Assembly (NCBI RefSeq): GCF_021390395.1
Contig: NZ_JAJUWT010000013.1
Coordinates: forward strand, 62,001 to 126,000
Length of the DNA stretch: 64,000 bases
From: Saccharothrix sp. S26
Lineage (GTDB): Bacteria; Actinomycetota; Actinomycetes; Mycobacteriales; Pseudonocardiaceae
Direction of reading: 5' to 3'
Both the position numbers and the translations under genes were made by a program. Below the pieces are notes generated by a model. The model was given only the letters and a program-made list of their open reading frames with translations. It searched no databases and was not told the DNA's origin. Each line of letters opens with the position of its first letter. Position 1 is the first letter of the stretch. Below, piece by piece: positions 17,254-41,692 of this stretch.

Positions 17254-18765
17254 ATGACGGAAGCGACCACGACCGCTCGCCACTCGCTGTGGTCCGAGGC
17301 GATCCCGCACGGCCGGTTCCCCGCGCTCACCGGCGAGACGGCGGTGGACGTGGCGGTGGTCGGCGGTGGCATCACCGGTGTCACCACGGCGTTGCTGCTC
17401 AAGCGCGCGGGCCTGCGGGTGGCACTGGTGGAGGCCGACCGGGTCGGCAGCGGCGTCAGCGGCAACAACACGGCCAAGGTCACCGCCCTCCAGTCCACCG
17501 TGTACTCCACGATCGAGCACAAGCACGACGCCGAGACCGCGGCCGCCTACGCCGACGGCAACACCGCCGCCGTGGAGCGGGTCGCCTCCCTGGTGTCCGA
17601 ACTGGGCATCGACTGCGACCTGCGCCGCATGCCCGCCTACACGTTCGCGTTCGACGAGGCCGGCCGGGCCGCCATCGAGCAGGAAGCCCAGGCCGCGGCC
17701 AGGGCCGGGCTGCCGGTGACCCGCGACCGGGGCGAGCTCATGGGCGTGCCGTTCGCGGTCGCGGACGCCGTGCGGCTGGACGACCAGCTGGCGATCCACC
17801 CGGTGAAGTACGTGCGCGGCCTGGCCGAAGTCGTCGACGGCGACGGGTCACGGGTCTACGAGGCCGGCCGGGTGCTGCGCATCGAGGACGGCAAGCCGAC
17901 CCGCGTGCACACCGACCGCGGCACGGTCGTCGCCGAACGCGTCGTCGTCGCCACGCACTACCCGATCCTGGACCGCGGCCTGTACTTCGCCCGGCTGGAG
18001 CCGGTGCGGTCCTACTGCGTCGCGGTCCGCCTCGCGTCGGGCACGCCGCCGACCGGCCTGTCCATCAGCGCGGGCAGCAGCCCGACGTGGTCGCTCGCGA
18101 GCGCCGGCGACCTGCTGATCGTCTCCGGCCAGGGCCACGCGACCGGTTCCGCGCCCGGCGAGCCGTACGAGGAGCTGACCAAGTTCGCCGCCGAGCACTG
18201 GGACATCGCCGAGGTCACCCACCGCTGGTCCGCGCAGGATCCGACCTCCTACGACAACCTGCCGATGATCGGCCCCTACACGCCCGGCTCGACCACCCTG
18301 TACGGCGCGACCGGGTTCATGAAGTGGGGCCTGAGCAACGGCACCATGGCGGCCGAGGTGCTCACCGACCTGATCGTGGGTCGGGACAACCCGCTGGCCG
18401 CGCGGTTCAGCCCGCACCGGCTGACGTTGGGCTCGACGCCCAAGCTCGCGAAGCTCAACGCCAAGGTCGCCGCGGACCTGGTCGGCGACCGGCTGAAGTC
18501 GGCCGAGGTGGACTCCGTCGCGGACGTCCCCGTGGGCGAGGCGCGCGTGGTGCGTGACGGCAGCGGCAAGGCCGGCGTGTACCGCGACGAGGCAGGCGGC
18601 GTGCACGGCGTGTCGTTGCGCTGCACCCACCTGGGCTGCCTGGTGCGGTTCAACCCCGCCGAGCGCAGCTGGGACTGCCCGTGCCACGGGTCGCGGTTCG
18701 ACGTCGACGGCGCGGTGCTCGAAGGGCCCGCGACCAAGCCGCTGCCCCGGCGCGACCCTTCATGA
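17254..18765 (+). CDS. FAD-dependent oxidoreductase (DAO type) with C-terminal Rieske domain
   Basis: A 503-residue two-domain protein. The N-terminal DAO-fold FAD domain starts with [23 protein letters not shown] (dinucleotide motif near residue 33). The C-terminal Rieske [2Fe-2S] domain has C457-T-H459-L-G-C462 and C475-P-C477-H478. The architecture resembles YhfW-type proteins of unknown substrate. It is cytoplasmic, with no Tat signal visible. Its stop overlaps the next gene by four bases. A SigB-type promoter directly upstream suggests stress induction. Confidence 0.87.
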
Positions 18766-19835
18766 CGGTGGGCGTGGAGGAGGAGTTCCTCCTCGTGGAT
18801 CCGCGGACGCGTCGACCGGTCGCGCGTGCGGCCGACGTGCTGGCCGGTGTGCGCGACCTGCCGCCGGGCGCGCAGGTCCACCGCGAGCTGAGCGGCGCGC
18901 AGGTGGAGTTCGCCAGCGGCGTCTGCGCGACGCTGGACGAGCTGCGCGAGCACCTGGCGGCCGGGCGGCGGGCGTTGGCCGAGGCCGCGCACGCCGAAGG
19001 GCTGTGGCTGGTCGCCTCGGGCACACCGCCGCTGGCCGACCCGCGACCGGCGTTGAGCGCGGGGGAGAGGTTCGAGCGGATCGAGGCGGTCTACCGGGGT
19101 CAGGTGGACGGCTACCAGTGCTGCGGCTGCCATGTGCACGTCGGCGTGCCCGACCGGGAGACCGCCGTGCACGTGGTCAACCACCTGCGGCGGTGGCTGC
19201 CGACGCTGCTGGCGCTGGGCGGCAACTCGCCGTTCGACCGCGACCGGGACACCGGGTACGCGAGCTGGCGGATGATGGACCAGGCGCGGTTCCCCGGCTC
19301 GGGCGTGCCGCCGTTCTGCCGCACCGCCGCCGAGCACGCCGACCGCGTCGACCGATTGGTGGACAGCGGCGCGATCGTGGACGCCAACCAGACGTTCTGG
19401 CTGGCCAGGCCCTCGCCGCGGTACCCGACCGTCGAGGTCAGGGTCGCCGACACCGCCGCCGCGGTGGACGACGCCGTGCTCCAGGCGGGCCTGACCAGGG
19501 CCCTGGTCGACACCGCCCGCACGGCCGGGGCCGCCCCCGAGCTGGACGACCAGGTGCTGGCCGCCGCGGTGTGGTCGGCGGCACGCTACGGGATGTCCGG
19601 TCCGGGCGTCGACCCGCTCACCGCGCGCCGGGTGCCCGCCGCGGAGCTGGTCGAGGCGCTGCTGGAACACGTGTCCGACGCGCTCGGCGACGACCGCGAG
19701 CCGATCCACGCCCTCGTGCGCGACGTGCTGGCGAAGGGCACGGGCGCGCAGCGGCAACTGAGGGCGGGATCACCCGAGGCCGCCGTCGACCTGCTCGCGT
19801 GCACACCCACCGGAACGGGTAGTCCACGGCCATGA
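18762..19835 (+). CDS. glutamate-cysteine ligase family 2 / YbdK-type carboxylate-amine ligase
   Basis: A 357-residue ATP-dependent ligase of the GCS2 fold: [16 protein letters not shown] at the N-terminus, [17 protein letters not shown] in the centre and [20 protein letters not shown] downstream. YbdK homologues show weak gamma-glutamylcysteine synthesis, and actinobacterial relatives include EgtA of ergothioneine synthesis; no egtB-E genes are nearby, so I do not assign EgtA. ATG at 18762 overlaps the Rieske gene stop, and the end overlaps the next start by four bases. Confidence 0.83.
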
Positions 19836-20830
19836 CCACAGTGGACCACGCCGTCGACCGCGCCGTGCTGCCCGCGCCGCGCGGCCCCTTGTCCGCCGCC
19901 GTCGTGGACGCCCTGCGCGGTGACCCGCCGGCCGCCGGGCTCCCCGAGCCCGGGTCGGCCGACCCGTACGGCGAAGACCTGCAACTGGCCCTGCACGTGT
20001 GCTACGAGCTGCACTACCAGGGCTTCGCGGGCGTGTCGGACGACTGGGAGTGGGATCCGGCGCTGCTGGCGTTCCGCTCCGGGCTCGAACGGGTGTTCCT
20101 CGACGCCCTGCGCGCCGACGTGCCCGGCGGCGCGGACCTCGAGGGCGTGCTGGACGAACTGCTGGTCGAACCCGTCGACGGCGTCGGCGTGAGCCACTTC
20201 CTCAAGGACGAGGGGGAGTGGTGGCACGTGCGGGAGTACTTCGCGTTGCGCTCGATCTACCACCACAAGGAAGCCGACCCGCACGCGTGGGTCATCCCCA
20301 GGTTGCGCGGCACGGCCAAGGCGGCGCTGGTGGCCGTCGAGTTCGACGAGTTCGGCGGCGGGCGCGGCGACCGCATGCACTCCCGGCTGTTCGCCGACCT
20401 GCTCGTCGGCGCGGGGCTGGACGACGGCTACCTGCGCTACCTCGACCACGCGCCGGCCGTGATGCTGGCGACGGTCAACCTGATGTCGTTGTGCGGGCTG
20501 CACCGCTCGTTGCGCGGGTCGCTCGTCGGGCACTTCGCCGCCGCCGAGATCACCACCGCCCCGAGCGCCACCCGGATGGCCAAAGCGCTGGAACGGCTCG
20601 ACGCGCACCCCGACTGCGTGGAGTTCTTCACCGAGCACATCGAAGCCGACGCCGTGCACGAACAGGTGATGCGGCGGGACGTGATCGGCGACCTGCTCGC
20701 CCGTGAACCGGAGCTGACCGAGTCCGTCGTGTTCGGCGTGCAAGCCACCGAACTGCTCGAACAACGCCTCGGCGACCACCTGCTCACCGCGTGGCGAGAG
20801 GGGCAGACGGCGTTGCGCCTGCCCCTCTGA
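19832..20830 (+). CDS. iron-containing redox enzyme, haem-oxygenase-like (HDO) fold
   Basis: A 332-residue all-helical protein of the haem-oxygenase-like di-iron group. Probable metal-ligand segments are VEFDEFGGGRGDRMHSRLFADLL and EHIEADAVHEQVM, with Glu/His spacing typical of HDOs. Family members catalyse N-oxygenation, C-C cleavage or desaturation reactions; several actinomycete representatives remain unassigned. It closes the three-gene redox operon (four-base overlap upstream) and faces the CDGSH gene across ten bases, a neighbourhood I recall from other actinomycetes. Confidence 0.78.
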   Translation: MTTVDHAVDRAVLPAPRGPLSAAVVDALRGDPPAAGLPEPGSADPYGEDLQLALHVCYELHYQGFAGVSDDWEWDPALLAFRSGLERVFLDALRADVPGGADLEGVLDELLVEPVDGVGVSHFLKDEGEWWHVREYFALRSIYHHKEADPHAWVIPRLRGTAKAALVAVEFDEFGGGRGDRMHSRLFADLLVGAGLDDGYLRYLDHAPAVMLATVNLMSLCGLHRSLRGSLVGHFAAAEITTAPSATRMAKALERLDAHPDCVEFFTEHIEADAVHEQVMRRDVIGDLLAREPELTESVVFGVQATELLEQRLGDHLLTAWREGQTALRLPL

Positions 20831-21663: not shown

Positions 21664-21755
21664 AGGACAGTGGTTCCCGGCGCGCCCGACCGCAAACGAC
21701 AGGAATGGATGGCCACGAATGGGGAACCCCCATGGTCCCAGAACAGGGAGGTCGG

Positions 21756-22562
21756 ATGGGCGTGGTGGAGGCGACCCGTGCGGTGGCCCGCGAACACGTG
21801 CTGGTGGCGATGCTCGGCAACATCCCCCGGTTGGTGTCGGACCCGGTCTGGCGCGCGGACGACCCGGACGAGGGACGCGGTCTGGGCGTGCTGCTGGTTC
21901 CCGGTTTCGGCTTCGGTGACTGGAGCCTGCAACTGGCCAGGACCTGGCTGCGCAAACGCGGCTACGCCCCCATCAGGGCGCGCATCGGCATGAACGTCGG
22001 CTGCACGTCCGAGCTGGTCGACCGCCTCGAACGCCGGCTGGAGCAGCACGCGGAGGCCACCGGCGGCCGGGTCGTGCTGTTCGGGCAGAGCCGGGGCGGC
22101 GGCCTGGCCAGGCTGGTGTCCGTGCGCCGGCCGGACCTCGTGCGCGGCTTGGTGATGCTCGCCAGCCCGGTGCTGGACCAGCTCGGCGCGCACCCCAGCG
22201 TGGTGCGCGTGGCGCGGACCCTGGCCCGGCTCTCCCGGGCCGGTGTCCCGGGGCTGCTCGACGAGGACTGCTTCGCCGGCCCGTGCTACGACACCAACTC
22301 CACGGCCATGGCGGAGCCGTTGCAGGTGCCGGCCATCGCGGTGTTCTCCCGCAACGACCTCATCGCGCCGTGGGAGCTGTGCGCGGACCCGTGCGCGGAC
22401 TGCGTCGAGGTGGGCAGCACGCACACCGGCATGGGTCTGGACCCCGAGGTGTACCGGCTCCTGGCCCCGCGACTGGCCGCGTGGGCACGAGACCGGGAAC
22501 CGGTCACGACCTCCGCCGCGGAGCGGCCGATGGCAGAGGCCGCCGCGGCGACCACGGGCTGA
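21756..22562 (+). CDS. alpha/beta-hydrolase family protein
   Basis: A 268-residue cytoplasmic alpha/beta hydrolase. The nucleophile elbow is FGQSRGGGLARL, the acid is probably in VFSRNDLIAPWE, and the histidine in GSTHTGMGL. LLVPGFGFGDWSL carries the oxyanion-hole region. It looks like the triacylglycerol-lipase-like hydrolases often annotated in mycobacteria and actinomycetes; the substrate is open. ATG 21756 follows GGGAGGTCGG at the right distance. Divergent from the HemK2-like gene. Confidence 0.8.
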   Translation: MGVVEATRAVAREHVLVAMLGNIPRLVSDPVWRADDPDEGRGLGVLLVPGFGFGDWSLQLARTWLRKRGYAPIRARIGMNVGCTSELVDRLERRLEQHAEATGGRVVLFGQSRGGGLARLVSVRRPDLVRGLVMLASPVLDQLGAHPSVVRVARTLARLSRAGVPGLLDEDCFAGPCYDTNSTAMAEPLQVPAIAVFSRNDLIAPWELCADPCADCVEVGSTHTGMGLDPEVYRLLAPRLAAWARDREPVTTSAAERPMAEAAAATTG

Positions 22563-22653
22563 CCCGGCGCCGCTCCCCGGTGCGCTGACCTGCCGCTCGA
22601 TTGATGGTGGGCCGACCCAACGCCTTTCGGCGGCGAGCCGACCTGCTGCGTCG

Positions 22654-22728
22654 GCGGGCTGATCCAGCGCCTGCGGACGACGGGCTGACCTGCCGCCAAC
22701 CTCCGCGGGCTGGTCCAGCGCCCTGCGG
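22654..22728. repeat. degenerate 24-base direct repeat in a convergent spacer
   Basis: Copies at 22654-22676 and 22705-22728 share GCGGGCTG, TCCAGCGCC and TGCGG with one substitution and one gap; shorter GGCTGACCTGCCGC-like pieces flank them. They fill the 178-base spacer between two convergent genes. No strong terminator hairpin with a T-run is visible. Confidence 0.4.
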
Positions 22729-22740
22729 CGGCGGGCCGGC

Positions 22741-24090
22741 CTACCGCCTCGGCGGCACGTGCAGGCGGGAGCCGGTTGCCTCCGTGCTCGGCCACCACGC
22801 GCCGTCCTCGGCCACGTAGAACATCCGCGGCCCGATCTCGCTGATCGTGCGCACCGCGTCCACCAACCGGTCGACGTGGTCCACCCCGATGCCCAAACCC
22901 AGGCTCGCCCGCACGGCGGGCCGCTCGCCGGACAGGTGCCGTGCCAGCGGTCGGGCGCAGAAGTCGCCGTGCCGCACGCCGATGCCGTACTCCACCGACA
23001 GGGCGGTCGTCAGCAGCGCCGAGTCCACCCCGTCCACGGTGAACGCGACCATCGCGACCCGTTCGCTGGCCGGGCCGAACAACGACACCTCGGCCACCTC
23101 GGGTATCTCGGCCAGTCCCGTGCGCAACCGGGTCAGCAGCACCGACTCGTACGGCATCACCGAGTTCCAGGTGGTCCGCAACGTCTGGCAGGCCGCCGCC
23201 AGCGCCACCGCGCCCACCACGTTCGCCCCGCCCGCCTCGTGCCGCGCCGCGCCCGACGCCCACGTCACCGTGCCGTCGCCGACGTGCACGGTGGCACCGC
23301 AGCCCGCCAGGTGCGGCCGTGCCGCCTCCAGCCAGTCGGGCCGCCCCGCCAGCACCCCGATCCCGAACGGCGCGTACATCTTGTGCCCGCTGAACGCCAC
23401 GTAGTCCACGTCCAGCGCGGCGAGGTCGATGGGCTGGTGGGCGGCCAACTGCGCCGCGTCCACCGCGATCCGCGCGCCGTGCCGCCGGCACAGCGCGACC
23501 ACGTCCTCCAACGGCATCAGCTCGCCGGTCACGTTCAACACGGCGCTCACGGCCACCAGCACGTCGCCGCCCAACGCCCGCAGCGCCTCGTCCAGCGACC
23601 CCAGCATCTCCTCGACCGACGCCGGGATCGGCAACCGGTGCACGTCCCGCCACGGCAACAGCAACGCGTGGTGCTCGCTGGAGAACACCACCACCGTCGT
23701 CCCCTCCGGCACGGCCATCGCGAGCAGCTTCAGCGCGTCGGTCGTGTTGCGCGTGAACACGAGGTAGTCCTCGTCGCGGCAGCCGACGAACGCCCGCACC
23801 ACCCGCCGCGCCTCTTCGAACCGGGCCGTGGCCATCGCGGCCAACGTGCCCGAACCCTCGTGCGAGCTGGCGTACCACGGCAGGAACGCCTGCGCCGCCT
23901 CGGCGACGGCGACCATGCACGGCGCCGTGGCCGCGTGGTCGAAGTTCGCGAACGACGCCGTGGCCCCGGAACCCAGCGGCACCTGGAGGTCCGCGCCGAG
24001 CACGGCGGGCAGCACCGACCGCGAGCCGTCCGTCGGCCGCGGCTGCGCGAACGGCCGCACGGTCCGGTCCGGGTCGAGGAACAGGGTCAC
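22741..24090 (-). CDS. class V aminotransferase-fold enzyme (cysteine-desulfurase/lyase-like)
   Basis: A 449-residue PLP enzyme of fold type I. The PLP lysine is K237 in AFSGHKMYAPFG, with D211 and Q214 (VDAAQLAAHQP) stacking and binding the cofactor. Relatives are cysteine desulfurases, isopenicillin-N-epimerase-like proteins and EgtE-type C-S lyases; the active-site cysteine loop of desulfurases is not evident. GTG 24090 overlaps the preceding cysteine-synthase-like gene by four bases. It is the last gene of the four-gene operon and may break or rearrange the amino acid made upstream. Confidence 0.82.
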   Translation of the reverse strand: MTLFLDPDRTVRPFAQPRPTDGSRSVLPAVLGADLQVPLGSGATASFANFDHAATAPCMVAVAEAAQAFLPWYASSHEGSGTLAAMATARFEEARRVVRAFVGCRDEDYLVFTRNTTDALKLLAMAVPEGTTVVVFSSEHHALLLPWRDVHRLPIPASVEEMLGSLDEALRALGGDVLVAVSAVLNVTGELMPLEDVVALCRRHGARIAVDAAQLAAHQPIDLAALDVDYVAFSGHKMYAPFGIGVLAGRPDWLEAARPHLAGCGATVHVGDGTVTWASGAARHEAGGANVVGAVALAAACQTLRTTWNSVMPYESVLLTRLRTGLAEIPEVAEVSLFGPASERVAMVAFTVDGVDSALLTTALSVEYGIGVRHGDFCARPLARHLSGERPAVRASLGLGIGVDHVDRLVDAVRTISEIGPRMFYVAEDGAWWPSTEATGSRLHVPPRR

Positions 24091-25058
24091 CGCGCTTCCC
24101 CGGCGAGCGAGCCCTCGGCGAACGCGACGTCCTCGTCGGGCAGCGCGTCGAGGTAGTCGTGCACGCCGTCGTAGGCGAACGTCAGCACCCGCGACCCGGC
24201 GGGCAGCGACCGCGCCACCCGGCAGGCCGCGACCAGGTTCGCCGCCGACGAGATGCCGACCGCGAGACCCTCGGTCCGCATCACCCGCCGCATCATCTGC
24301 CGCGCGTCCTCGAACGACACCTGCTCCTCGTCCGACACCAGGTCCAAGTCGAGCACCGCGGGGACCAGCCCGACCGCCAGCCCCTGGATCGAGTGCGTCA
24401 CGAATTTGTTGTCGCGCAACGAACAACCCTCCGGCTGCACGGCCACGACCCGCATCGACGGCCGGTGCTCCAGCAGCACCCGACCCACCCCGGTGATGTG
24501 CCCGCCCGTGCCGACGCCCGCGACCAGCGCGTCCGGCAGCCGCGGCCCGAGCGCGTCCATGATCTCCACCGCCGTGGTCCGCTCGTGGATCGCAGGGTTC
24601 GCCGGGTTGGCCTGCTGGTTGAGCATCACCCAGTCCGGGTTGTCGAACAGCAGCCCCAACGCCATCTCGGCGTGCGAGTTGTTGCCCAGCGTGTGGTCGG
24701 AGAGCCGCACCTCGGCGCCGTAGCTGCGCAGCAGCCGCTGCTTGGCCGGGCTGTAGTTGTCCGGGATCACCAGCACCAACCGGTAGCCCAGGATGGCCGC
24801 CGCCATGGCCAGCCCGATGCCGGTGTTGCCGCCGGTGGACTCGATGATCGTCTGCCCGCTGCCGCGGACCAGCTCGCCGTCCTTCTCCGCCTCCAGGATC
24901 ATGTTCAACGCGATGCGCACCTTGTGGCTGCCGCCGGGGTTGAGCAGCTCCAGCTTCACCAGCAGCTCGCGGTCCAGGTCCGGTTCCAGCCGCGACAGCC
25001 GCACGACCGGCGTGTCGCCGATCGCGTCCAAGACCGAGTCGGCGATGCCCTTGCCCAT
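24087..25058 (-). CDS. cysteine-synthase-family PLP enzyme with unusual SHK motif
   Basis: A 323-residue fold type II PLP enzyme. The Schiff-base lysine is K46 in NPGGSHKVRIAL, where classical O-acetylserine sulfhydrylases read NPxxSxKDR. The substrate loop reads STGGNTG (about 74-80) instead of TSGNTG, and VGTGGHITGVG binds the phosphate. Such changes occur in SbnA-like 2,3-diaminopropionate synthases and CysM-like enzymes that use other donors. The start ATG 25058 is two bases after the EamA-JAMM stop. Substrate: probably O-acetylserine or O-phosphoserine plus an unknown nucleophile. Confidence 0.82.
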   Translation of the reverse strand: MGKGIADSVLDAIGDTPVVRLSRLEPDLDRELLVKLELLNPGGSHKVRIALNMILEAEKDGELVRGSGQTIIESTGGNTGIGLAMAAAILGYRLVLVIPDNYSPAKQRLLRSYGAEVRLSDHTLGNNSHAEMALGLLFDNPDWVMLNQQANPANPAIHERTTAVEIMDALGPRLPDALVAGVGTGGHITGVGRVLLEHRPSMRVVAVQPEGCSLRDNKFVTHSIQGLAVGLVPAVLDLDLVSDEEQVSFEDARQMMRRVMRTEGLAVGISSAANLVAACRVARSLPAGSRVLTFAYDGVHDYLDALPDEDVAFAEGSLAGEAR

Positions 25059-25060
25059 GC

Positions 25061-26512
25061 TCACTCCTGCGTCACGTGCGGGGGGACGGTTTTCTCGCGC
25101 GGCGCGCCGAAGGTCGCGATCGCGGTGTAGCGGCCCAGCCCCGCGTCGAAGTCGAACAGCCGCGAGCCGAGCACCTCCTCGCGCGAGGTGTCCACGACGA
25201 GGTGGCGCACCGGGTACACCGGCGTGCCCTCGTAGACGGCGAACCGGTGGTCCTCGTCGCTGAAGTACGCGCCCGCGTCGGGGTGCGAGTGGTAGATCAC
25301 GCGGACCGGGTCGTCGCCGTCGAACGAGTCCTCCAGCTCGCGCAGGTCGTCCACGCCGAACGCGTACCCGGTCCGGCTCTCCCGGTCGTACACCCCGGGC
25401 CGGTCCTCGATCACGTTGACGCAGTCCTTCACGCCACTGGCCCGGATGAACCCGCACGCCTCCGCCGGGTAGCGGGCCAGCACGTGCCGGTAGACCTCGG
25501 CCAGCGCCGCCTCGGTCGGCCGCCCGTCGTCGTCGACCGCGGGCACCGGGGCCGGTGTCGCGGGCGGCGGCAGCACCTTGCGCTGGTTCCACTGCGTCAC
25601 GCCGAACGCGCCCAGGATCACCAACGTCAGCAGCAGGTCCACCCAGCCGAACGACGCGCCCTCGATCACCACGGCGAGGAACTGCGCGATGATCGGGAAC
25701 AGCACGAACGCGAACGACACGATCACCGTGTCCATCCGCTGGAGCAGCCAGAAGTACACCGCGAACCCGATGGCGGACGCGACCACGCCCAGGTAGATCG
25801 TCGCGCCGACGCTGCGCGCGGTGAACGCGTCCGCGCCGGGCCGTTCGACCAGCAGGCCCAGACCCGTGAGCAGCACGCCGCCCACGGCCATCGGCAGGGT
25901 GTTCAGCGTCAGCGCGGGCATCCGGCCGCCGTGCTTCTTGATCATGATGTAGGCCAGCGCGTGGATCACCGCCGCGCCGAGCAGGGCCGCCACGCCGATC
26001 ACGTTGGTGACCGCGACGCCCTGCGAGTGCACGATCAGCGTGCCCAGCGCGGCGAACGCGACCAGCACGGCCGCGGCCTGCGTGGTGGTGATCCGCGTGC
26101 GCAGGATCGGCACGCTGAACACGATCATCAGGATCGACACCGACGACACGCAGATCGACGCCAGGCCCGACGACACATACAGCTCGCCGTAGTTGAACAG
26201 GAAGAACGGCACGGTGAAGTAGCAGCCCACCATGAAGGCGAAGAACCAGCCCATGCCGCTCGGGTAGCGCAGCGGCTTGCGCAGCGCGAGGCAGGCCGCG
26301 ATGAACGCCGGCCCGGCGACGACGAAGCGCAGGCCCGACGCGGTGAGCGGCGGCATGTCGGTGATCGCGAGCTTGATCGCGATCCAAGTCGAACCCCAGA
26401 TCAGCACGACCGCAGCGAAGCTGACCGCGACCAACGCCTTCCGCTGTCGGGGAGGACCGGACGTCGAGGCGGCGGCAGCGGGCCGTGGCGCCTCGATCTC
26501 GGGAGCGGACAT
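25061..26512 (-). CDS. EamA/DMT exporter fused to a C-terminal JAMM/MPN metalloprotease domain
   Basis: 483 residues in two parts. Residues about 25-310 are a ten-helix EamA-type exporter (WGSTWIAIKLAI at the start of helix 1). After a Pro-rich linker (315-325), residues about 335-470 form a JAMM/MPN domain with a complete zinc site: E351 (EACGF), H408-S-H410, S418 and D421 in YHSHPDAGAYFSDED. EamA (YdeD) exports O-acetylserine and cysteine; the JAMM protein Mec of mycobacteria cleaves cysteine from its carrier CysO. ATG 26512 is preferred over an upstream TTG because GGAG precedes it. I know of no described protein with this fusion. Confidence 0.82.
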   Translation of the reverse strand: MSAPEIEAPRPAAAASTSGPPRQRKALVAVSFAAVVLIWGSTWIAIKLAITDMPPLTASGLRFVVAGPAFIAACLALRKPLRYPSGMGWFFAFMVGCYFTVPFFLFNYGELYVSSGLASICVSSVSILMIVFSVPILRTRITTTQAAAVLVAFAALGTLIVHSQGVAVTNVIGVAALLGAAVIHALAYIMIKKHGGRMPALTLNTLPMAVGGVLLTGLGLLVERPGADAFTARSVGATIYLGVVASAIGFAVYFWLLQRMDTVIVSFAFVLFPIIAQFLAVVIEGASFGWVDLLLTLVILGAFGVTQWNQRKVLPPPATPAPVPAVDDDGRPTEAALAEVYRHVLARYPAEACGFIRASGVKDCVNVIEDRPGVYDRESRTGYAFGVDDLRELEDSFDGDDPVRVIYHSHPDAGAYFSDEDHRFAVYEGTPVYPVRHLVVDTSREEVLGSRLFDFDAGLGRYTAIATFGAPREKTVPPHVTQE

Positions 26513-26611
26513 GGAGCGGGATCTCCAGACTGGGTTCAAGGGTGTGCTGTTCGGGCGACGACGGCGAGCCGGCGGCAGCGGATCGTGGCGGACGGGGTGG
26601 GTCGGTCGCGT

Positions 26612-27616
26612 TCAGCCGGCGGCGCGGGGGAGCGAGGCCACTCGCGACTTGCGGGCCAGCGGGATGCCCACCGTGACCTCCGACCCGCCGTGGCGGACCC
26701 GGATGTGCGCCACCGACCGCAGCCCGCGCGCCCGCGGCGAGATCTGGAACGTGAGGCACTTGGCGTTGTTCTGCAGCACCGACCAGTCGCCGGCGGCCAG
26801 CGGCAGCTGGGTCGGCCCCAGCAACTGCACCTCCAGCCCCGGCCGGTCGAGGTCGTTGCCGTGCAACCGGAAGCGGTACTCGCCGAGCCCTTCGACACCG
26901 TAGACGGTGATCGGCCGCGGCCCGGCGACCATCTGGTACTGGTGCAGCACGGCCACCTGCGCGCCGGCCGGCACGTCCGCGCGCACCAGCGCGTGGCTGC
27001 CGATCATGACGTCGTCGCCGACCGTGATCGGCCCGAGCACGCGGGCGAAACCACCGACCTGCACCCGGTCGCCGAGCGTCGGGTGCCGCCTGCCCCCGGG
27101 GTTGTCCGCGATGCCCAGCGCGCCCAGCACCACCCCTTGCAGGATGTAGCAGTCCGCGCCGATCGTGGCGTCCTCGCCGATCACCGTGCCCATGCCGTGG
27201 TCGATGATGAACCGGGGGCCGATCGTCGCGCCGGGGTGGATCTCCACGCCCGTGCGGACCTTGGCCAGTTCGGAGATCTTGCGCGCCAGCACGCGCTGCC
27301 GCCACGGGTCGCCGCACGGCGCGGTCAGCACCTCGTGCGCGACGCGGTAGGACAGCACCGCCTGGAAGCACGCGTACGCCTCCAGCACGTACTGCCACGA
27401 GCCCAGGCTCGCCGGATCCCGCCGCGCGAGCGCCAGCAGGTCGCCCACCGCGAGGTCGGCGGCGCGGCGGGCCGCGGCGGCGGAATCGAGGCCGAGGGCG
27501 GCCGAATCGGACACGTGCGGCGCGAGCACATTCTCCGCCGCGCGCACAATTTCCGGGTAAGCGGCGTCCGGTTCCCGGTCCACGGGACAGGCGGACTCCT
27601 CTCGAACGACAGACAC
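26612..27616 (-). CDS. serine-acetyltransferase-like hexapeptide protein with C-terminal extension
   Basis: 334 residues. The N-terminal helical region and left-handed beta-helix match CysE: ISELAKVRTGVEIHPGATIG, IDHGMGTVIGEDATIG, and VLGPITVGDDVMIG. CysE makes O-acetylserine from serine and acetyl-CoA. Beyond about residue 235 there is an extra domain of about 100 residues, beta-rich by eye (YGVEGLGEYRFRLHG onward), that I do not recognise. It is the first gene of the operon, 99 bases ahead of the EamA-JAMM gene. Confidence 0.78.
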   Translation of the reverse strand: MSVVREESACPVDREPDAAYPEIVRAAENVLAPHVSDSAALGLDSAAAARRAADLAVGDLLALARRDPASLGSWQYVLEAYACFQAVLSYRVAHEVLTAPCGDPWRQRVLARKISELAKVRTGVEIHPGATIGPRFIIDHGMGTVIGEDATIGADCYILQGVVLGALGIADNPGGRRHPTLGDRVQVGGFARVLGPITVGDDVMIGSHALVRADVPAGAQVAVLHQYQMVAGPRPITVYGVEGLGEYRFRLHGNDLDRPGLEVQLLGPTQLPLAAGDWSVLQNNAKCLTFQISPRARGLRSVAHIRVRHGGSEVTVGIPLARKSRVASLPRAAG

Positions 27617-28010
27617 CGGTTCCCCCTAGTCAACAGATGATGTCGCGGTCGGGGACATTACCTCGGTCTCCGCAGTTCGGCGACCGCAGTTTTGCGGCTC
27701 GATCAGCCGAACGGACCGCTTGATGCGCCGATCGGTCGCACTTCGTTACGCCGTCGTCGGGCAGGTTCACTGCATTGGACCAGTGGTTGGGATCGTGATT
27801 AACGCAGATTAATAAATCCGAAACACCTCGCAGTGCGATACTTCACCCGGTTGTCCCAACGACGTCCATGCGTCGGCTATATGACCAGGTCAGGCGCTAT
27901 GAAGCGGTCCGAGGTCGCTCCTGCGGGGTGGGCTACCATCCCGTCGGCGCACCCGTGGCCACCTGATCGACCGGTGGCCGCAATGGTCGTGCGGGTACTG
28001 GGGAGGCAGC
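27617..28010. promoter_or_regulatory. 394-base divergent intergenic region, unusually AT-rich in the middle
   Basis: It separates the cysE-like operon from the divergent methyltransferase. The stretch 27770-27830 is clearly less GC-rich than its surroundings and contains GATTAA twice, at 27797-27802 and 27807-27812, exactly ten bases apart, as expected for a tandem regulator site. No gene or RNA structure is recognisable. Promoters for both flanking genes must lie here. Confidence 0.45.
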
Positions 28011-28838
28011 TTGTCCGGGGGTTTGTCGCAGGATGCCGTGGATTTCCACGCGTTCGAGTTGGCGCGCTGGCAACGCGTGGTGGACAGATATCACCGGTCT
28101 TGGGGTGAGTTGACCGGTTCGGCCGGTTCGGGCTTGCTCGACGCGATCGGCGTCGAACCGGGAACGCGGTTGCTCGACATCGCGACCGGACCGGGATATG
28201 TGGCCGGTGCGGCTTCCCGAAGAGGGGCCCGCGCGGTCGGCGTGGACTTCTCCGCGCAGATGATCGCGAAAGCGCGGGCGCTGTTCCCGGCGGTCGAGTT
28301 CCACGAGGGCGACGCGCTGGACCTGCCGTTCCCCGACGGCGCGTTCGACCGGGTCGTGATGAACTTCGGGTTGCTGCACCTGAGCGACCCGCGGCGCGCG
28401 ATCGAGGAGGCGTTCCGGGTGCTGTCGCCCGGCGGGGCGTTCGGCTTCACGGTGTGGGCCTCGCCCGACGAGGCGGTGGGGTTCTCGCTGCTCTCCGACG
28501 CGATCATGGAGTTCGGCGAGCCCGTCGCACTGCCCGAGGGCCCCGACTTCTACCACTACAGCGAGCCGGACAACTGCCGCGCGGCGCTGGTCGACGCGGG
28601 GTTCGCCGACACCGGCGCGCGGGTGCTGCACCTGGACTGGCGGCTGGCGAGCGTGGACGAGCTGTTCCCGGCGTACCGGCAGGCGACCGTGCGCACCGGG
28701 GCGCTCCTCGACGGCCAGAGCGACGCCGACCGCGAGAAGATCGAGCAGCGGGTGCGGGAGACGGCGGCGCGGTTCGCCGACGGCGACGGCGGGTTGGTGA
28801 TCCCGATGCCCGCGATCGCGGTCTGGGGCCGCAGGTGA
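28011..28838 (+). CDS. class I SAM-dependent methyltransferase (UbiE-like)
   Basis: A 275-residue methyltransferase: SAM motif I LLDIATGPGYVAGAA, acidic motif AVGVDFSAQMIAKA, and post-motif FDRVVMNFGLLHL. It methylates a small molecule that the sequence does not reveal. The start is TTG at 28011, with GGGAGG at 28001-28006 directly before. It is alone on this strand and divergent from the cysE-like operon, so co-regulation is possible. Confidence 0.78.
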   Translation: MSGGLSQDAVDFHAFELARWQRVVDRYHRSWGELTGSAGSGLLDAIGVEPGTRLLDIATGPGYVAGAASRRGARAVGVDFSAQMIAKARALFPAVEFHEGDALDLPFPDGAFDRVVMNFGLLHLSDPRRAIEEAFRVLSPGGAFGFTVWASPDEAVGFSLLSDAIMEFGEPVALPEGPDFYHYSEPDNCRAALVDAGFADTGARVLHLDWRLASVDELFPAYRQATVRTGALLDGQSDADREKIEQRVRETAARFADGDGGLVIPMPAIAVWGRR

Positions 28839-28979
28839 GCACGTCGGTGTTAAGTGAAGAACCGCCCGCGCTCGGTGACGAATGTTCGGTGATCATTCAC
28901 TCTGAAGCGTGATCTTTCGTGCGATCCTGCCTGCGTGCGGCCACCCTGCGCCGCCGCACCCGGGAGGAGACACCCCATC

Positions 28980-30164
28980 GTGCGACTACGACCCCTGCTG
29001 CACCCCCTTGCCGTCGTCGTGTCCGCCCTCGCCGTCGCCGCGGCCCTGCTGGTGCCCACCGCGGCCGCCGGCGCGACCCCGATCACCGTCGCCGAGGCCA
29101 TCGGCCGGCAGAGCGGCGCTTCCGCCACCGTGCGCGGCTACGTCGTCGGGCAGCCCACCGCGACCAACACCGTGGTGCGGTCCGGCTTCCCGTCCGACTA
29201 CGCGCTGGCGCTGGCCGACTCGCCGAGCTCGACCAACACCGGCCAGATGCTGTACGTGCAGGTCACGTCGGCGTTCCGGGCGCAGTGGGGCCTGCGGACC
29301 AACCCGGGCCTGCTCGGCAGGCTGATCGACGTCACCGGCCCGCTGAACGCCTACTTCTCGCACCCCGGCCTCACGTCGCCGACCGCGTTCGCCTTCGCCA
29401 CCACGTCACCCACGTCCACCACCACGACCACGACGACCGCCGGGCCGACCGTCACCACGACCCCCGGCGGCGACTACGACGACACGTACTACCGCACCGC
29501 GCTCGGCAAGACCGGCGCGTCGCTGAAGACGGCGTTGAACGGGATCATCCGCACCAACACCAAGCTGTCCTACGACCAGGTGTGGGAGGCGTTGAAGGTC
29601 ACCGACCAGGACCCGGACAACAGCGCCAACGTCATCCTGCTCTACACCGGGCGCTCGCAGAGCAAGACCACCAACGGCGGCGACCCCGACGACTGGAACC
29701 GCGAGCACGTCTGGGCCAAGTCGCACGGCGACTTCGGCACCGCGACCGGCCCGGGCACCGACATCCACCACCTGCGGCCGACCGACGTGTCGGTGAACGC
29801 GGAGCGGGGCAACAAGGACTTCGACCTCGGCGGCTCGCCGGTGGGCGAGGCACCCGGCAACTACACCGACGCCGACTCGTGGGAGCCGCGCAACGCGGTG
29901 AAGGGCGACGTGGCGCGGATGCTCTTCTACATGGCGGTGCGGTACGAGGGCGGCGACGGCTACCCCGACCTGGAGCTGAACGACAACGTCAACAACGGCA
30001 CCGCGCCGTACCACGGCAGGCTCTCGGTGCTGCTGCGGTGGAACGCCCAAGACCCGCCGGACGCCTTCGAGAAGCGGCGCAACCAGGTGATCTACGACCG
30101 GTACCAGCGCAACCGGAACCCGTTCATCGACCACCCGGAGTGGGTCGCGGCGATCTGGGGCTGA
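28980..30164 (+). CDS. secreted endonuclease I (EndA/NucM type) with N-terminal OB-fold-like domain
   Basis: 394 residues. The signal peptide spans about 1-31. A DUF6359/OB-like domain (about 33-140, TVAEAIGRQSGASATVRGYVVG) and a Thr-rich linker (142-161) precede the endonuclease I domain. The nuclease core has NREHVWAKSHG (240-250) and DIHHLRPTD (261-269), the beta-beta-alpha metal motif. It degrades extracellular DNA and RNA nonspecifically. GTG 28980 is chosen because CGGGAGGAG lies upstream and the signal peptide starts there. A strong hairpin follows the stop. Confidence 0.87.
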   Translation: MRLRPLLHPLAVVVSALAVAAALLVPTAAAGATPITVAEAIGRQSGASATVRGYVVGQPTATNTVVRSGFPSDYALALADSPSSTNTGQMLYVQVTSAFRAQWGLRTNPGLLGRLIDVTGPLNAYFSHPGLTSPTAFAFATTSPTSTTTTTTTAGPTVTTTPGGDYDDTYYRTALGKTGASLKTALNGIIRTNTKLSYDQVWEALKVTDQDPDNSANVILLYTGRSQSKTTNGGDPDDWNREHVWAKSHGDFGTATGPGTDIHHLRPTDVSVNAERGNKDFDLGGSPVGEAPGNYTDADSWEPRNAVKGDVARMLFYMAVRYEGGDGYPDLELNDNVNNGTAPYHGRLSVLLRWNAQDPPDAFEKRRNQVIYDRYQRNRNPFIDHPEWVAAIWG

Positions 30165-35864: not shown

Positions 35865-37119
35865 TGGACCTCGACGTGGCCGTGATCGGCGCGGGGATCG
35901 CCGGGTTGGCCGCCGCGCACGAGCTCGCGCGGTCCGGGCGCGAGGTGCGGGTGTTCGAGGCGGCCGACCACGTCGGCGGCCGGATGGCCACCCGGCACGT
36001 GTCCGGGTTCGTGGTCGACACCGGCGCGGAGCAGATCTCCACCCGCGGCTACCCGCACACGTGGGAGCTGCTGCGGCGGCTGGGGCTCGACGACGTGCCG
36101 AAGATCGGGCGGCGGCGCGGGGCTGGGTGCGCGGGCCCGGCTGGACTTCGCGCGCGCCACCCGGGGCCTGGCCCGGGGCGGCGCGCTCGACACCGGGCGG
36201 CCCGAGGCGTCACGGGTGGGCACGGCCACCGTCGCCGAGTTCTGCGCGCCCTACCACCGCGACGTGCCGGAGTACCTGTGCCAGCCGGTGGTGTCGGGGT
36301 TCTTCGGGTGGCGGCCCGAGCGCTCGGCCGCCGCGCCGTTCCTGGCCCTGCTGGGCGCGATCGGCCCGTCCACGGCCTGGCGCGCCTACGACGGCGGGAT
36401 GGACGTGGCGGCACGGGCGCTGGCCTCCCGGCTCGACGTCGTCACGTCGTCGCCGGTGCGGGAGGTGCTGTCCGGTCCGGGGTACGCGCGGATCACCGGG
36501 CCCGGGCGGGGAGGTCCGGGCCCGTTCGGTGGTGCCGGCCGTGCCCGCGCCCGTCGCCCGCGGGCTCTACGTCAACCCGCCGGAGCACGAACGGCTGTTC
36601 CTGGACGCCTGCGGGTTCACCCCGATGGTGAAGGCGCACCTGATGCTGGACCACCGGCCCGAGTCGGACGTGTACCTGCCGGCCGTGCCACGGTCGGAGA
36701 GCCGGTCGGTGTCCGTGGTGCTGTTCGACCACCTCAAGCACCCCGACCGCGCGCCCGAGGGGTGCGGCCTGGTCACCGTGATCGCGAGCCCCGCGGTCGC
36801 GCCGGCGATGCTGGACGCCCCGGACGACGAGGTGGTGTCCGCGCTCGCCGCCGAGGCCGAGCGCTTCGTGCCCGGCCTGCGCGCCGCGGTGACCGGCTCG
36901 GTGGTCCACCGGTTCCGCCACGGCCTGCCCGAGGCCACACCGCGCGCCCTGGCGTTGCGCCGCGAGTTCGCGTCCCGGCTGGGCGGTCCCGTGGACTACG
37001 CGGGCGACTGGGTGAGCTTGAGCCCGTACAGCGAAGCCGCCGTGCGCAACGGCCGCCGTGCCGCCGCACGGGTCCACGGCGTGTCCACGAACACCGGCAC
37101 GAGGAGGCAACCCGCATGA
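35864..37119 (+). pseudogene. FAD-dependent amine-oxidase-like oxidoreductase, frameshifted twice
   Basis: From ATG 35864: MDLDVAVIGAGIAGLAAAHE with the FAD GxGxxG motif, and VFEAADHVGGRMATRH. After about 36113 the homologous reading moves to another frame (RLDFARATRGLARGGALDTG, VAEFCAPYHRDVPEYLCQPV). Near 36505, in a G-rich run, it moves again (GGEVRARSVVPAVPAPVARG, then to VSLSPYSEAAVRNGRRAA). Overall about 415 residues, near the length of protoporphyrinogen-oxidase-like enzymes, with perhaps about 30 residues missing at the first break. The stop overlaps the AMP-ligase start. Confidence 0.75.
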
Positions 37120-38669
37120 GGCCGCACGACATGGGCACGCTGTTCGACGAGGTCGCCGCCCGCGGCACGCACACCACCGTGCACCTCGACCGGCCGTTCG
37201 ACATACTCCCGGCCGGCCACGGCCCGGGTGTCGACTACACCGTGCCGCAGTTGGCCGGGCTGGTCCGCGAGGCCGCCGGCTGGCTGTACGAGGCGGGCGC
37301 GCGGCGCGGCGACCGGGTGGCGGTGGTCAAGCGCAACCACTACGACTACGACCTGCTCGCGTGCGCGGCGGTGCGGATCGGGGCGGTGCCCGCGCTGCTG
37401 TCCGGGCACCTGACCGACGACGTGCTGGAGGTCCTGCTCAAGCGGCTGGACCCGGCGGTGCTGGTCACCGACCGCGTGCCGCCCGCAGGCGTCGCGCGCC
37501 GCGTGCTGTCGCTGGGCCCGTTCGTGCCGGGGGCGCTGACGTTGGACGACGTGCGCGGCGCACGGGTGCCCGCGCCCCGGCGGCGGCACGACGACGAGCC
37601 GCTGGTGGTCAACCACACCTCCGGCACGACCGGTGTGCCCAAGCTCGTCGTGCACACCACCCGCACGATCGTGCACCGGCCGGCCCGGTTCGAGGCGGTG
37701 CGCTGGCCGGTGATCGGCGTGCGGCGCGACGACGTGGTGGCCAACGCGAGCTCCTACGCCCACGGCCGCACGTTCTGCTGGACGGCCGGCGTGTTCTGCC
37801 TCGCCCCGCGCAAGGTCGTGCTGCTCAGCGACCCCGACTCGGCCGCCTCCGTGCTGGCCCGGCACCAGCCGACGACGGTGGAGGCGCTGCCCTCGGCCTA
37901 CGTGCGGTGGCAGGCGCTCGCGGCGCGACCGGACAACCCGTTCCGGGGCGTGCGGGTGTTCGTCAGCACCTACGACGCCATGCACCCGCCGGCCATGCGC
38001 GCGATGATGCACGCCTCGCGCCGCAGGCGTCCGCTGTGGATGCAGGGCTGGGGGCAGACCGAGACGGGACCGCTGACGTTCCGGTTCCTCACCCGGCGCG
38101 CGCTGGACCGGTCGCCCGACGCCCGCGACCTGGGCCGCCCCGTGCCCGGCCGGACCCGGCTGCGCGTGGTGGACCCGGTGACCCTCACGCCCGTACCGCG
38201 CGGGCACAGCGGGCTGGTGCTGGCCCGCACGGCGGCCCGCTGCGTCGGCTACGTCGGCGAGCAGGACCGGTGGCACGCCAAGACCAGCGGACCGTGGTGG
38301 AACACCGGCGACCTCGGCGTGCTCACCCGCGGCGGTGCGGTGCGGCTGCTCGACCGCGAGGTGGACTCCGTGCCGGGGCTGAGCTGCCTGCGGGTGGAGG
38401 ACCTGGTCGAGGACCGGCTGCCGGAGGTGGTGGAGTGCGTGGTGCTCGGCACGCCGGGCCGACCGCCGATCCCGGTGCTGGTCACGTCCGCGCCGCTGGA
38501 CCCGGCGGCGTGGCGGCGCGCGGTGGCCGACCTGCCGCCGATGGCCGATCCGCGGGTGCTGGCGTGGGACGACGTGCCGCGCACGGCCACCGGGAAGGTC
38601 CGCTGGCTCGACCTGCTCACCCGGCTGGTCGGCGCCGCCGAACCCTGTGGCAGCGGGCGGTGGACGTGA
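37116..38669 (+). CDS. AMP-dependent acyl/aryl synthetase (ANL superfamily)
   Basis: 517 residues. The phosphate loop VNHTSGTTGVPKLVVHTT (A3), the A5-like GWGQTETGPLTF, WWNTGDLGVL (A7) and the lysine motif PRTATGKVRWLDLL (A10) are all present, so the enzyme looks complete. It should activate a carboxylic acid as acyl-AMP for CoA or carrier transfer. ATG 37116 with GAGGAGG at 37101-37107, inside the stop of the broken FAD gene. Followed by methyltransferase and CaiB-like genes with four-base overlaps. Confidence 0.86.
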   Translation: MRPHDMGTLFDEVAARGTHTTVHLDRPFDILPAGHGPGVDYTVPQLAGLVREAAGWLYEAGARRGDRVAVVKRNHYDYDLLACAAVRIGAVPALLSGHLTDDVLEVLLKRLDPAVLVTDRVPPAGVARRVLSLGPFVPGALTLDDVRGARVPAPRRRHDDEPLVVNHTSGTTGVPKLVVHTTRTIVHRPARFEAVRWPVIGVRRDDVVANASSYAHGRTFCWTAGVFCLAPRKVVLLSDPDSAASVLARHQPTTVEALPSAYVRWQALAARPDNPFRGVRVFVSTYDAMHPPAMRAMMHASRRRRPLWMQGWGQTETGPLTFRFLTRRALDRSPDARDLGRPVPGRTRLRVVDPVTLTPVPRGHSGLVLARTAARCVGYVGEQDRWHAKTSGPWWNTGDLGVLTRGGAVRLLDREVDSVPGLSCLRVEDLVEDRLPEVVECVVLGTPGRPPIPVLVTSAPLDPAAWRRAVADLPPMADPRVLAWDDVPRTATGKVRWLDLLTRLVGAAEPCGSGRWT

Positions 38670-39433
38670 CGACCTACGTGTTCGACCAGTCGCACGTCGC
38701 CGAGCAGCACCGCTGCCTGGCCGCCGCCTACGACCCGGTCACCTTCGCCCGGCTCGCGCAGACCGGCGTCCGGGCCGGCTGGCGCTGCCTGGACGTCGGC
38801 GCGGGCGGCGGCAGCGTGGCCCACTGGCTGACCGCGCGCGGCGCGACGGTGCTCGCCACCGACGTGCGGCCCGACCACGTGCCGCCCGCGCCCCGGCTCA
38901 CCGTGCTGCGGCACGACGTGGTGTGCGACCCGCTGCCCGACGCCGCGTTCGACCTGGTCCACGTGCGGCTGGTGCTGCGGCACCTGCCCGAGCGGGACGC
39001 GGTGCTGCGCAAGCTGGTCGCCGCGGTGAAGCCGGGCGGGTGGTTGCAGGTCGACGAGTTCGACAACTCCTACAGCCCCGTGCTGCTCGCGCCGGACCGG
39101 GAGTCGGCCGAGCTGTACGAGACGTTCCTGGCGGTCAAGGAGGGCGTGTTCGACGCCTACGGCGTGGACGGCGCGTGGGGGCGCAAGGCGGCGGGGGCGA
39201 TGGCCGCGGCCGGGTTGGTCGACGTGGACCCGCGGGTGGTCGTGCACCCCTGGCGGGCCGGGTCGCCGGGCGTGCGACTGCTCGCGCACAGCACCCACAT
39301 GTTGCGGGACAAGCTGGTCGCGGCGGGCCTGAGCGACGGGCAGTTGGCGGCCGTGCGCGCGTTGCTGGCTAACGAGCGGTTCCTGGCCACGTCCCCGGTC
39401 GTCTACTCGGTGCACGGGCGGCGGCCGGCATGA
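38666..39433 (+). CDS. class I SAM-dependent methyltransferase
   Basis: 255 residues from GTG 38666, overlapping the ligase stop. SAM loop LDVGAGGGSVAHWL, ATDVRPDHV, then FDLVHVRLVLRHLPERDAVL and LVAAVKPGGWLQVDEFD. UbiE/small-molecule type. It probably decorates the product of this cluster. Its stop overlaps the CaiB-like ATG by four bases. Confidence 0.83.
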   Translation: MTTYVFDQSHVAEQHRCLAAAYDPVTFARLAQTGVRAGWRCLDVGAGGGSVAHWLTARGATVLATDVRPDHVPPAPRLTVLRHDVVCDPLPDAAFDLVHVRLVLRHLPERDAVLRKLVAAVKPGGWLQVDEFDNSYSPVLLAPDRESAELYETFLAVKEGVFDAYGVDGAWGRKAAGAMAAAGLVDVDPRVVVHPWRAGSPGVRLLAHSTHMLRDKLVAAGLSDGQLAAVRALLANERFLATSPVVYSVHGRRPA

Positions 39434-40821: not shown

Positions 40822-41692
40822 CGTGGACGTCCTCTACCGGCGTCGTGCTGCGCGACCTCGTGCCCGCCGAGCTGCGCCGGTCGTGGGTCGCGGCGGGGCA
40901 CTGCCCGGACCGGGACCTGTACTCGCTGTTGCGGGAGCGGGTGGCCGCGCACCCGCGGCGGGTCGCGGTGATCGACTCGTCCGGGTCGCTGGACTACGCG
41001 TCGCTGGACCGGGCCGTGAGGTGGCAGGCGAAGTCCCTGCGCGACCTCGGTGTCGGTCCCTCGGACATCGTCGGCATCGACGTGCCCAACGGTCGGGAAG
41101 GCGTGGTGGCCGAGCTGGCGGTGGCGGCGGTCGGCGGGGTGGCGGTGCACCTGCCCGACGGCGGTTCCCCGGTGACGAGCACGATGATCACCGACGTGTC
41201 GCGGGCCCTGGAAGCGGCTGCCGACCCGCGTTGTGACGTGCCGTGGTCGCCGGTAACGGTCGACCCGGAGGCGCCGGCCAAGATCCTGGTGTCGTCGGGC
41301 ACTGAGGCCGCGCCGAAGCTCGTCGCGTACTCGCACAACGCCTTCGCCGGTGGGCGGGGCAACTACGTGCGGGCCGTGCACGGCGACACCGCCGTGCCGC
41401 GCGACCTGGTCCCGGTGCCGCCGGCGTCGGCGTTCGGGTCGTTCGGCGCGGCGATCACGTTGTGCCGGTGGTGCTGATGCGGCGGTTCGACGTGGCCGAG
41501 GCGGTGCGCGTGGTGGCCGAGCACCGGCCGCCGTCGCTGGACCAGCCGGCCGCGTTCCTGCGCGACCGCGGCCTGAGCCGCCGCAAGCTGCCGGAACGCC
41601 TCGTGGTGCTGCCGGAACTGCCCTTGGGCCACACCGGCAAGGTCTGCCTGCCCACGGTGACGCGGTCGGCGGCCATGGCCGGTGAGGCGTGA
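40818..41692 (+). pseudogene. second AMP-dependent synthetase, core deleted and frameshifted
   Basis: The N-terminal part (MTWTSSTGVVLRDLVPAELR, YSLLRERVAAHPRRVAVIDS, KILVSSGTEAAPKLVAYSHN) reads to a stop at 41477. From about 41470 the homology continues in another frame: VLMRRFDVAEAVRVVAEHRP, then directly FLRDRGLSRRKLPERLVVLP and LPLGHTGKV, the C-terminal lysine motif. About 130 residues between these blocks, including the A5 and A7 motifs, are absent. Non-functional as it stands. Confidence 0.8.

Follow-up and report, generated by a model that had tools for sequence, protein, structure and literature searches.

A 64-kb window of the Saccharothrix sp. S26 genome (the window being the whole stretch of DNA analysed) carries at positions 22741-27616 an operon of four genes on the minus strand, which encode a serine-acetyltransferase-like (SAT-like) protein, a fusion of an EamA transporter with a JAMM domain, a CysK-like enzyme dependent on pyridoxal phosphate (PLP) and a SufS-like class V PLP enzyme. 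The genes lie where the first-pass annotation of this DNA had placed them, and both the 2-base gap between the EamA-JAMM and CysK-like genes (25059-25060) and the 4-base overlap between the CysK-like and SufS-like genes (24087-24090) are as it described; 99 bases separate the SAT-like gene from the EamA-JAMM gene. The four-gene unit of that annotation is real and conserved, although incomplete, because a divergently transcribed methyltransferase gene had been overlooked. The features are listed below.

22741..24090, minus strand: SufS-like class V PLP enzyme, 449 amino acids, with the lysine of a GHK motif and the cysteine of RHGDFCARPL
24087..25058, minus strand: CysK-like PLP enzyme, 323 amino acids, with altered active-site loops GSHKVR, STGGNTG, NQQANP and GTGGH
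25061..26512, minus strand: EamA-JAMM fusion, 483 amino acids, ATG start at 26512, with EamA and Prok-JAB both over the Pfam cut-offs
25061..25546, minus strand: JAMM domain of the fusion, with E351, H408, H410, S418 and D421 (protein numbering)
26612..27616, minus strand: SAT-like protein, 334 amino acids, with hexapeptide repeats and a C-terminal extension of about 100 amino acids without a Pfam match
28011..28838, plus strand: class I S-adenosylmethionine-dependent methyltransferase, 275 amino acids, the divergently transcribed fifth gene of the module
22550..28844, approximate extent: insert absent from six non-carrier Saccharothrix genomes

The EamA-JAMM fusion and its genomic block

The EamA-JAMM fusion is genuine and not a gene-join artefact, since further assemblies carry it, at 93-95% identity within Saccharothrix and at 67-69% in a further two genera. 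The protein belongs to both families in one open frame: EamA (PF00892) scores 112.4 bits over two stretches (cut-off 28.2) and Prok-JAB (PF14464) 43.3 bits (cut-off 25). The five residues of the JAMM site had been assigned exactly in the first-pass annotation; they are invariant in all six aligned fusions and in 14 of 14 rows when five fusions are aligned with nine other relatives. The JAMM region is modelled with a pLDDT of 88.5, and its best match in the PDB is the deubiquitinase homologue JAMM1 of P. furiosus (5ld9; TM 0.57/0.71). The best structural matches are JAMM isopeptidases, presumably active as such, and the usual topology of the EamA family presumably puts a JAMM domain at its C-terminus on the cytoplasmic side. 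The ratio of nonsynonymous to synonymous substitution rates (dN/dS) of the fusion gene is 0.15-0.21 (three pairs) and that of its JAMM part is 0.17-0.29 (three comparisons); whole-gene values for the four operon genes are 0.08-0.21 in 12 comparisons. The operon genes are thus under purifying selection.

The fusion is rare. Genome searches scored the best first-look candidates of each genome, at most 12 in the family and 9 in the class for the JAMM domain, and at most 7 in the family and 5 in the phylum for the CysK-like enzyme, so that absences hold among these candidates. Among 297 family genomes, 110 matched the JAMM domain at E <= 0.001. Six matches are strong (E <= 4.5e-62): the window's genome, three other Saccharothrix, Actinokineospora enzanensis and Actinocrispum wychmicini. 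The other 104 are weak (E >= 8.8e-6), and the 24 of these loci that were examined (L039-L062) are 64-79% identical to the genome's own Mec. At class level, one of 394 genomes, the window's own, matches at E <= 1e-12, and spread on plasmids was rejected, as a tblastn search of a plasmid collection with the JAMM domain gave no match. The clade of the CysK-like enzyme occurs in exactly the six family genomes that carry the fusion (E <= 1e-68), and in the phylum, where 42 of 396 genomes match at E <= 1e-60, none exceeds 47% identity except the window's own. A survey of the neighbours of such fusions, which the first-pass annotation had proposed as a check, finds the SAT-like, fusion and CysK-like genes contiguous in all six carriers, that is, in the window and in five of five loci of relatives; homologues lacking these partners and an intact JAMM site, which would have told against the module, did not appear. 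The SufS-like gene comes next in four of the five relatives' loci, and as many contain the divergent methyltransferase; A. enzanensis is the exception in both cases.

The boundaries of the module are seen by comparison with close relatives that lack it. The methyltransferase is found in four of 25 genomes of the genus, which are the operon carriers, and the next outward gene (28935-30164) in 24 of 25. In all of the six non-carriers examined, out of 21 in the genus sample, the flanking genes at 21705 and 28935 are only 161-744 bases apart; nucleotide similarity to these genomes ends at 22486-22548 and restarts at 28844-28884, the only exceptions being two short stretches at 28675-28845 with 70-76% identity. 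These empty sites, together with the co-occurrence of the methyltransferase, mark out a discrete block of five genes, about 6.3 kb long, which is either present or absent. The genes at 17254-20830, which read as an enzyme dependent on flavin adenine dinucleotide and a YbdK-type ligase (18681-19835), with a Haem_oxygenas_2 (Pfam) protein as the third, occupy the same place in all six non-carriers and were rejected as members of the module. A small gene of about 150 amino acids, which reads like a hemerythrin-type protein, lies between the flanks in the three non-carriers that were read (the place of 28839-28934 in the window); S. carnea has the gene too, G014 has a shortened form, none was seen in the window, and two other non-carriers have too little space between the flanks to hold it.

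The JAMM domain, the CysK-like enzyme and a possible CysO route

The JAMM enzyme Mec of mycobacteria hydrolyses the CysO-cysteine adduct and releases cysteine (PMC3227635). A corresponding route for the operon would have the CysK-like enzyme join a thiocarboxylated ThiS/CysO carrier to O-acetylserine, the JAMM domain cut cysteine from the carrier and the EamA part export it. We consider this route unlikely, although relatives of the JAMM domain speak for it. A scan of named genomes with two peptide patterns, which diverged fusions would escape, gave 14 loci, four of them fusions and ten without an EamA part in the open reading frame read; eight of the ten are titled deltaproteobacterial, myxococcal or Sandaracinus-type. 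In five of these ten EamA-less loci the JAMM gene is preceded directly by two cysteine-synthase-family genes. Of three loci read more closely, L072 encodes a ThiS-like carrier ending in AIAGG, and L074 and L075 encode ThiF-like E1 proteins, all named by reading and not by a family scan. At L081:2480-3178 a deltaproteobacterial open reading frame apparently joins JAMM, in frame, to a ThiS/MoaD-like domain whose last residues are AVGGG, which places a carrier and its presumed protease in one chain. In a Nitrospinota locus the EamA-less JAMM gene follows an open reading frame (L073:2-1642) whose product reads as a sulfite reductase carrying a TusA-like part at its C-terminus.

In a JAMM tree of 39 rows, whose relatives were drawn with the same two patterns, the five fused rows form one clade (support 100/99), separate from the 25 rows of resident actinobacterial Mec. 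They fall on the side of nine EamA-less rows, which again suits a CysO-type route, although long branches meet here and the exact place of the fused JAMM is unsure. The fused domain is 31% identical to the genome's own Mec over 89 residues. The fused JAMM looks like a member of the carrier-cutting branch of JAMM enzymes and probably did not derive from the resident Mec.

Several features of the genome and of the operon speak against the CysO route. The genome already has its own complete Mec-CysO-CysM locus (L001), on a contig other than that of the operon; the earlier remark that no CysO/ThiS gene is visible thus applies to the window's contig (C13) but not to the genome. No carrier or E1 hit lies on C13, and a dedicated sulfur carrier near the operon was accordingly rejected. 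An E1 encoded elsewhere could presumably act in trans, like MoeZ. In mycobacteria too, MoeZ and CysO are encoded apart (PMC3227635). Mycobacterial CysM works with CysO on O-phosphoserine (PMC3227635, PMC11361707), but the operon has a SAT-like gene. One ThiS-family hit of the genome (L122, G000:C1:271617-271886) stands beside a gene that reads like a BNR/sialidase-type repeat protein, and no thiamine, molybdopterin or CysO gene was recognised in the 3.3 kb read around it.

The CysK-like enzyme itself also fits the CysO route poorly. It belongs to the Pfam family PALP (248.9 bits), and in the tree its clade of six joins 29 O-acetylserine sulfhydrylase (OASS) rows and five deltaproteobacterial CysK-type rows (support 99/94) on a long stem, apart from 11 actinobacterial and five deltaproteobacterial CysM-type rows, so that it falls outside both CysM groups. 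The 11 actinobacterial CysM rows consist of the genome's own and ten that were picked, in BLAST order, among the 24 loci L039-L062. Which deltaproteobacterial copy is CysM-type was judged by its position next to the JAMM gene, and long-branch attraction may be what brings the two CysM groups together. On this tree the clade branches beside CysK and not beside CysM. The clade is further marked by its active site. H45, V47, G76, Q149 and V229 are uniform in all six members and absent from 40 relatives, and H187 is shared by all six and by one of the 40, a contrast with near relatives rather than with the whole superfamily: similarity to the query governed the choice of 29, while 11 from six loci are ten deltaproteobacterial pair members and the genome's CysM. 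H45 precedes and V47 follows the PLP lysine, G76 lies in the substrate loop where all 40 relatives have serine, and Q149 follows the loop glutamine where all 40 have phenylalanine or tyrosine. The functional roles of these positions, as of V229 and H187, are presumably those known from ordinary sulfhydrylases. Such conserved changes make plain cysteine synthesis doubtful, and from the grouping with CysK together with the altered pocket neither the use of CysO nor a cysteine product follows. Both the CysO route for this operon and, as read from the pocket, plain cysteine as its product are therefore doubtful.

Partner enzymes and the A. enzanensis locus

The other enzymes resemble known families at a distance. 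The SAT-like protein scores 61.2 bits for Hexapep (Pfam) and 149.7 bits for the cysE model TIGR01172 (cut-off 210.65), the CysK-like enzyme 278.1 bits for the CysK model TIGR01139 (cut-off 350.95), and the SufS-like protein 246.6 bits for Aminotran_5 (Pfam) and 241.3 bits for the sufS model TIGR01979 (cut-off 475.1), so that all three fall below the NCBIfam cut-offs. The terminal isoleucine of CysE is the residue that docks to CysK. The SAT-like protein is 67-95% identical to four aligned relatives, and the C-terminal extension is found in all five proteins, none of which ends in isoleucine. Alignment of the SufS-like protein with 6mri pairs GHK with GHK and RHGDFC with RTGHHC, which identifies the PLP lysine and the acceptor cysteine; both are kept in five of five aligned copies, the cysteine within the motif RHGxFCA(R/Q)PL. 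The enzyme, a possible C-S lyase or desulfurase in the first-pass annotation, is not universal in the module, as A. enzanensis lacks it. The methyltransferase (Methyltransf_11 in Pfam, 85.4 bits) diverges from the SAT-like gene in Actinocrispum as well. The sequence between these two genes is conserved across four Saccharothrix loci, is poorly conserved in Actinocrispum and revealed no regulator.

The best NCBIfam models of the three enzymes are those of cysE, cysteine synthase and sufS, and the CysK-like enzyme is 43% identical to the genome's CysM over 265 residues. These resemblances favour a simpler account, in which the SAT and OASS make surplus cysteine, EamA exports cysteine or O-acetylserine, SufS uses cysteine, and JAMM is a regulatory or recycling addition. 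We regard such cysteine overflow as improbable. The active-site changes are conserved throughout the clade, and occurrence in six of 297 family genomes and one of 394 class genomes is a pattern of accessory metabolism. The EamA half, moreover, does not fit the exporter that the first-pass annotation had seen in it: it scores 36.8 bits for the O-acetylserine/cysteine exporter model NF008523 (cut-off 472) and is nearer to YedA, still at 80.6 bits under a cut-off of 270. With a score so far below the exporter cut-off, the EamA half gives no ground for inferring its cargo from YdeD.

In A. enzanensis the core has different company. A gene for an AlaX-like tRNA-editing protein (NF040865, 125.7 bits, cut-off 300) replaces the SufS-like gene and starts 2 bases after the stop of the CysK-like gene, if its TTG start is right. 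It is followed by a PGM1/BesA-like ATP-grasp ligase gene (105.9 bits, below the BesA cut-off of 750). A second BesA-like ligase (294.5 bits, below the same cut-off) lies less than about 12 kb beyond the SAT-like gene, and within about 12 kb on the same side are an Asp/Glu-type racemase over the asp_race cut-off, an MNIO enzyme and a B12-radical-SAM protein. Such company, as far as the gene families can be read, would fit the making of an antimetabolite, either an amino acid or a short peptide, against which tRNA editing would protect the producer. The same cluster (L066:480-13851, L126:3715-5913) also holds a 696-amino-acid protein with a weak match to the LanB N-terminal domain. The MNIO (MbnB/TglH-like) gene was considered as a general partner of the module and rejected: the window's genome has three MNIO-family genes, none on C13.

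This neighbourhood brings in another possible role for the JAMM domain. A toxic amino acid may be held as a gamma-glutamyl or short-peptide conjugate, and the JAMM isopeptidase would deprotect it at the pump. The two BesA-like ligases, which match a propargylglycine-glutamate ligase model, and the AlaX-like protein near the core argue for such amide protection, as do the structural matches of the JAMM domain. The Saccharothrix unit, however, contains no such ligase, the genome's own BesA match being weak and located elsewhere, and the YbdK-type ligase noted above is outside the module. To our knowledge gamma-glutamyl dipeptides are not a substrate of any JAMM enzyme, and we hold this version to be decidedly unlikely.

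Proposed function and relation to known systems

Amide protection and the CysO-type route are special cases of the same idea of release. We tentatively propose its general form, to which we give a little less than an even chance: a rare module of specialised metabolism makes and exports an amino acid derived from O-acetylserine, and the JAMM domain releases this amino acid from an amide bond to a carrier or protecting group. The first-pass annotation had likewise joined an O-acetylserine-derived product, JAMM release and export. The conserved unit, the complete JAMM site and the sulfur-carrier-type relatives of the JAMM domain agree with it, but a CysO carrier and a cysteine product are not implied.

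From the gene content, conservation, intact JAMM site, co-occurrence and insert boundaries seen directly, we infer the catalytic steps, the cargo and the JAMM substrate as follows. The SAT-like enzyme would convert L-serine to O-acetylserine or a near analogue, and the CysK-like enzyme would exchange the leaving group for a nucleophile in its remodelled pocket. Since its pocket differs from those of ordinary sulfhydrylases, this enzyme probably yields a beta-substituted alanine rather than plain cysteine. An amide bond may tie this compound, or a precursor of it, to a carrier or protecting group; the C-terminal JAMM domain of the exporter would hydrolyse that bond, and the fused EamA pump would export the freed amino acid. 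Where present, the SufS-like enzyme may supply sulfane sulfur or act as a C-S lyase, and the methyltransferase may tailor the product. A more specific version, which would be a new kind of export-coupled deprotection, is speculative and in our estimate rather unlikely: the amino acid would be built and rendered harmless as an amide of a protein or peptide carrier, and the JAMM isopeptidase borne by the exporter would cut it off only at the pump.

A number of observations weigh against the proposed release and export. Neither a carrier nor an E1 nor a ligase is encoded within the five-gene unit. The search for a ThiS/CysO homologue and its E1 that the first-pass annotation had suggested did find candidates, five ThiS-family hits and four ThiF-family hits (three over the cut-off) in the window's genome, which alone was scanned, but none of them is on C13, the operon's contig. 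As the SAT-like, CysK-like and SufS-like proteins are all under their cut-offs, the reactions assigned to them are guesses. The model of the SAT-like protein is poor (pLDDT 57.3), too poor for an interpretation of its C-terminal extension. The pocket changes were defined against near relatives, mostly picked by similarity to the query, and the BLAST identity of the CysK-like enzyme to CysM equals that to its OASS relatives, so that its placement beside CysK rests on the tree. The company of the A. enzanensis core comes from a single genome without the SufS-like and methyltransferase genes and may not carry over to Saccharothrix, where the only BesA match of the window's genome is below the cut-off and on another contig.

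The module looks real and new. A search of open-licence papers found no description of a fusion of EamA with a JAMM (JAB/MPN/Mov34) domain or of JAMM with any transporter, nothing on a gene cluster combining O-acetylserine with JAMM or on O-ureidoserine, and no mention of such a module in connection with CysO, Mec or JAMM in natural products or with AlaX, self-resistance and O-acetylserine. If the proposal is right, a JAMM peptidase is tied directly to an exporter, and the operon becomes a compact test case for the biosynthesis of carrier-bound or protected amino acids; if export-coupled deprotection is true, a JAMM enzyme serves small-molecule release and self-protection and not the recycling of ubiquitin-like proteins or sulfur carriers. 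The module is tractable, with five genes in about 6.3 kb, natural carriers and empty sites in one genus and defined changes in the CysK-like pocket, and these properties open its product and its JAMM substrate to direct experiment.

Elsewhere in the window, the plus-strand genes at 36529-41477 encode an amine-oxidase-family protein, two AMP-binding proteins (517 and 210 amino acids), a methyltransferase and a CoA-transferase III protein, and they may be a separate biosynthetic cluster. No RNA element in the window scores over its gathering threshold.

The operon shares parts with four known systems. BesA is the ligase of beta-ethynylserine (Bes) biosynthesis. The resemblance to that pathway is confined to the BesA-like ligases near the core of one relative, A. 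enzanensis, both below the BesA cut-off, and the ligases lie outside the Saccharothrix unit. The O-ureido-L-serine synthase DcsD of the D-cycloserine pathway is an OASS-family enzyme that makes a non-cysteine product from O-acetylserine. A DcsD structure (3x43) is among the five best PDB matches of the CysK-like enzyme, although the alignment shows differences between the two enzymes in the substrate loop and in the loops that surround the PLP lysine. The combination of CysE and CysK with export by YdeD/EamA likewise brings SAT-like, OASS-like and EamA-superfamily genes together as in this operon, whereas here all of them are below the NCBIfam cut-offs, the SAT-like extension lacks the terminal isoleucine and a JAMM domain is added. 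The CysO-CysM-Mec system of mycobacteria also pairs a JAMM enzyme of the Mec kind with a PLP enzyme of the cysteine synthase family. It differs in that the unit described here has no carrier or E1, in a genome that keeps a separate and complete CysO locus, and in that its JAMM domain is fused to an exporter and its PLP enzyme stands on the CysK side with an altered pocket.

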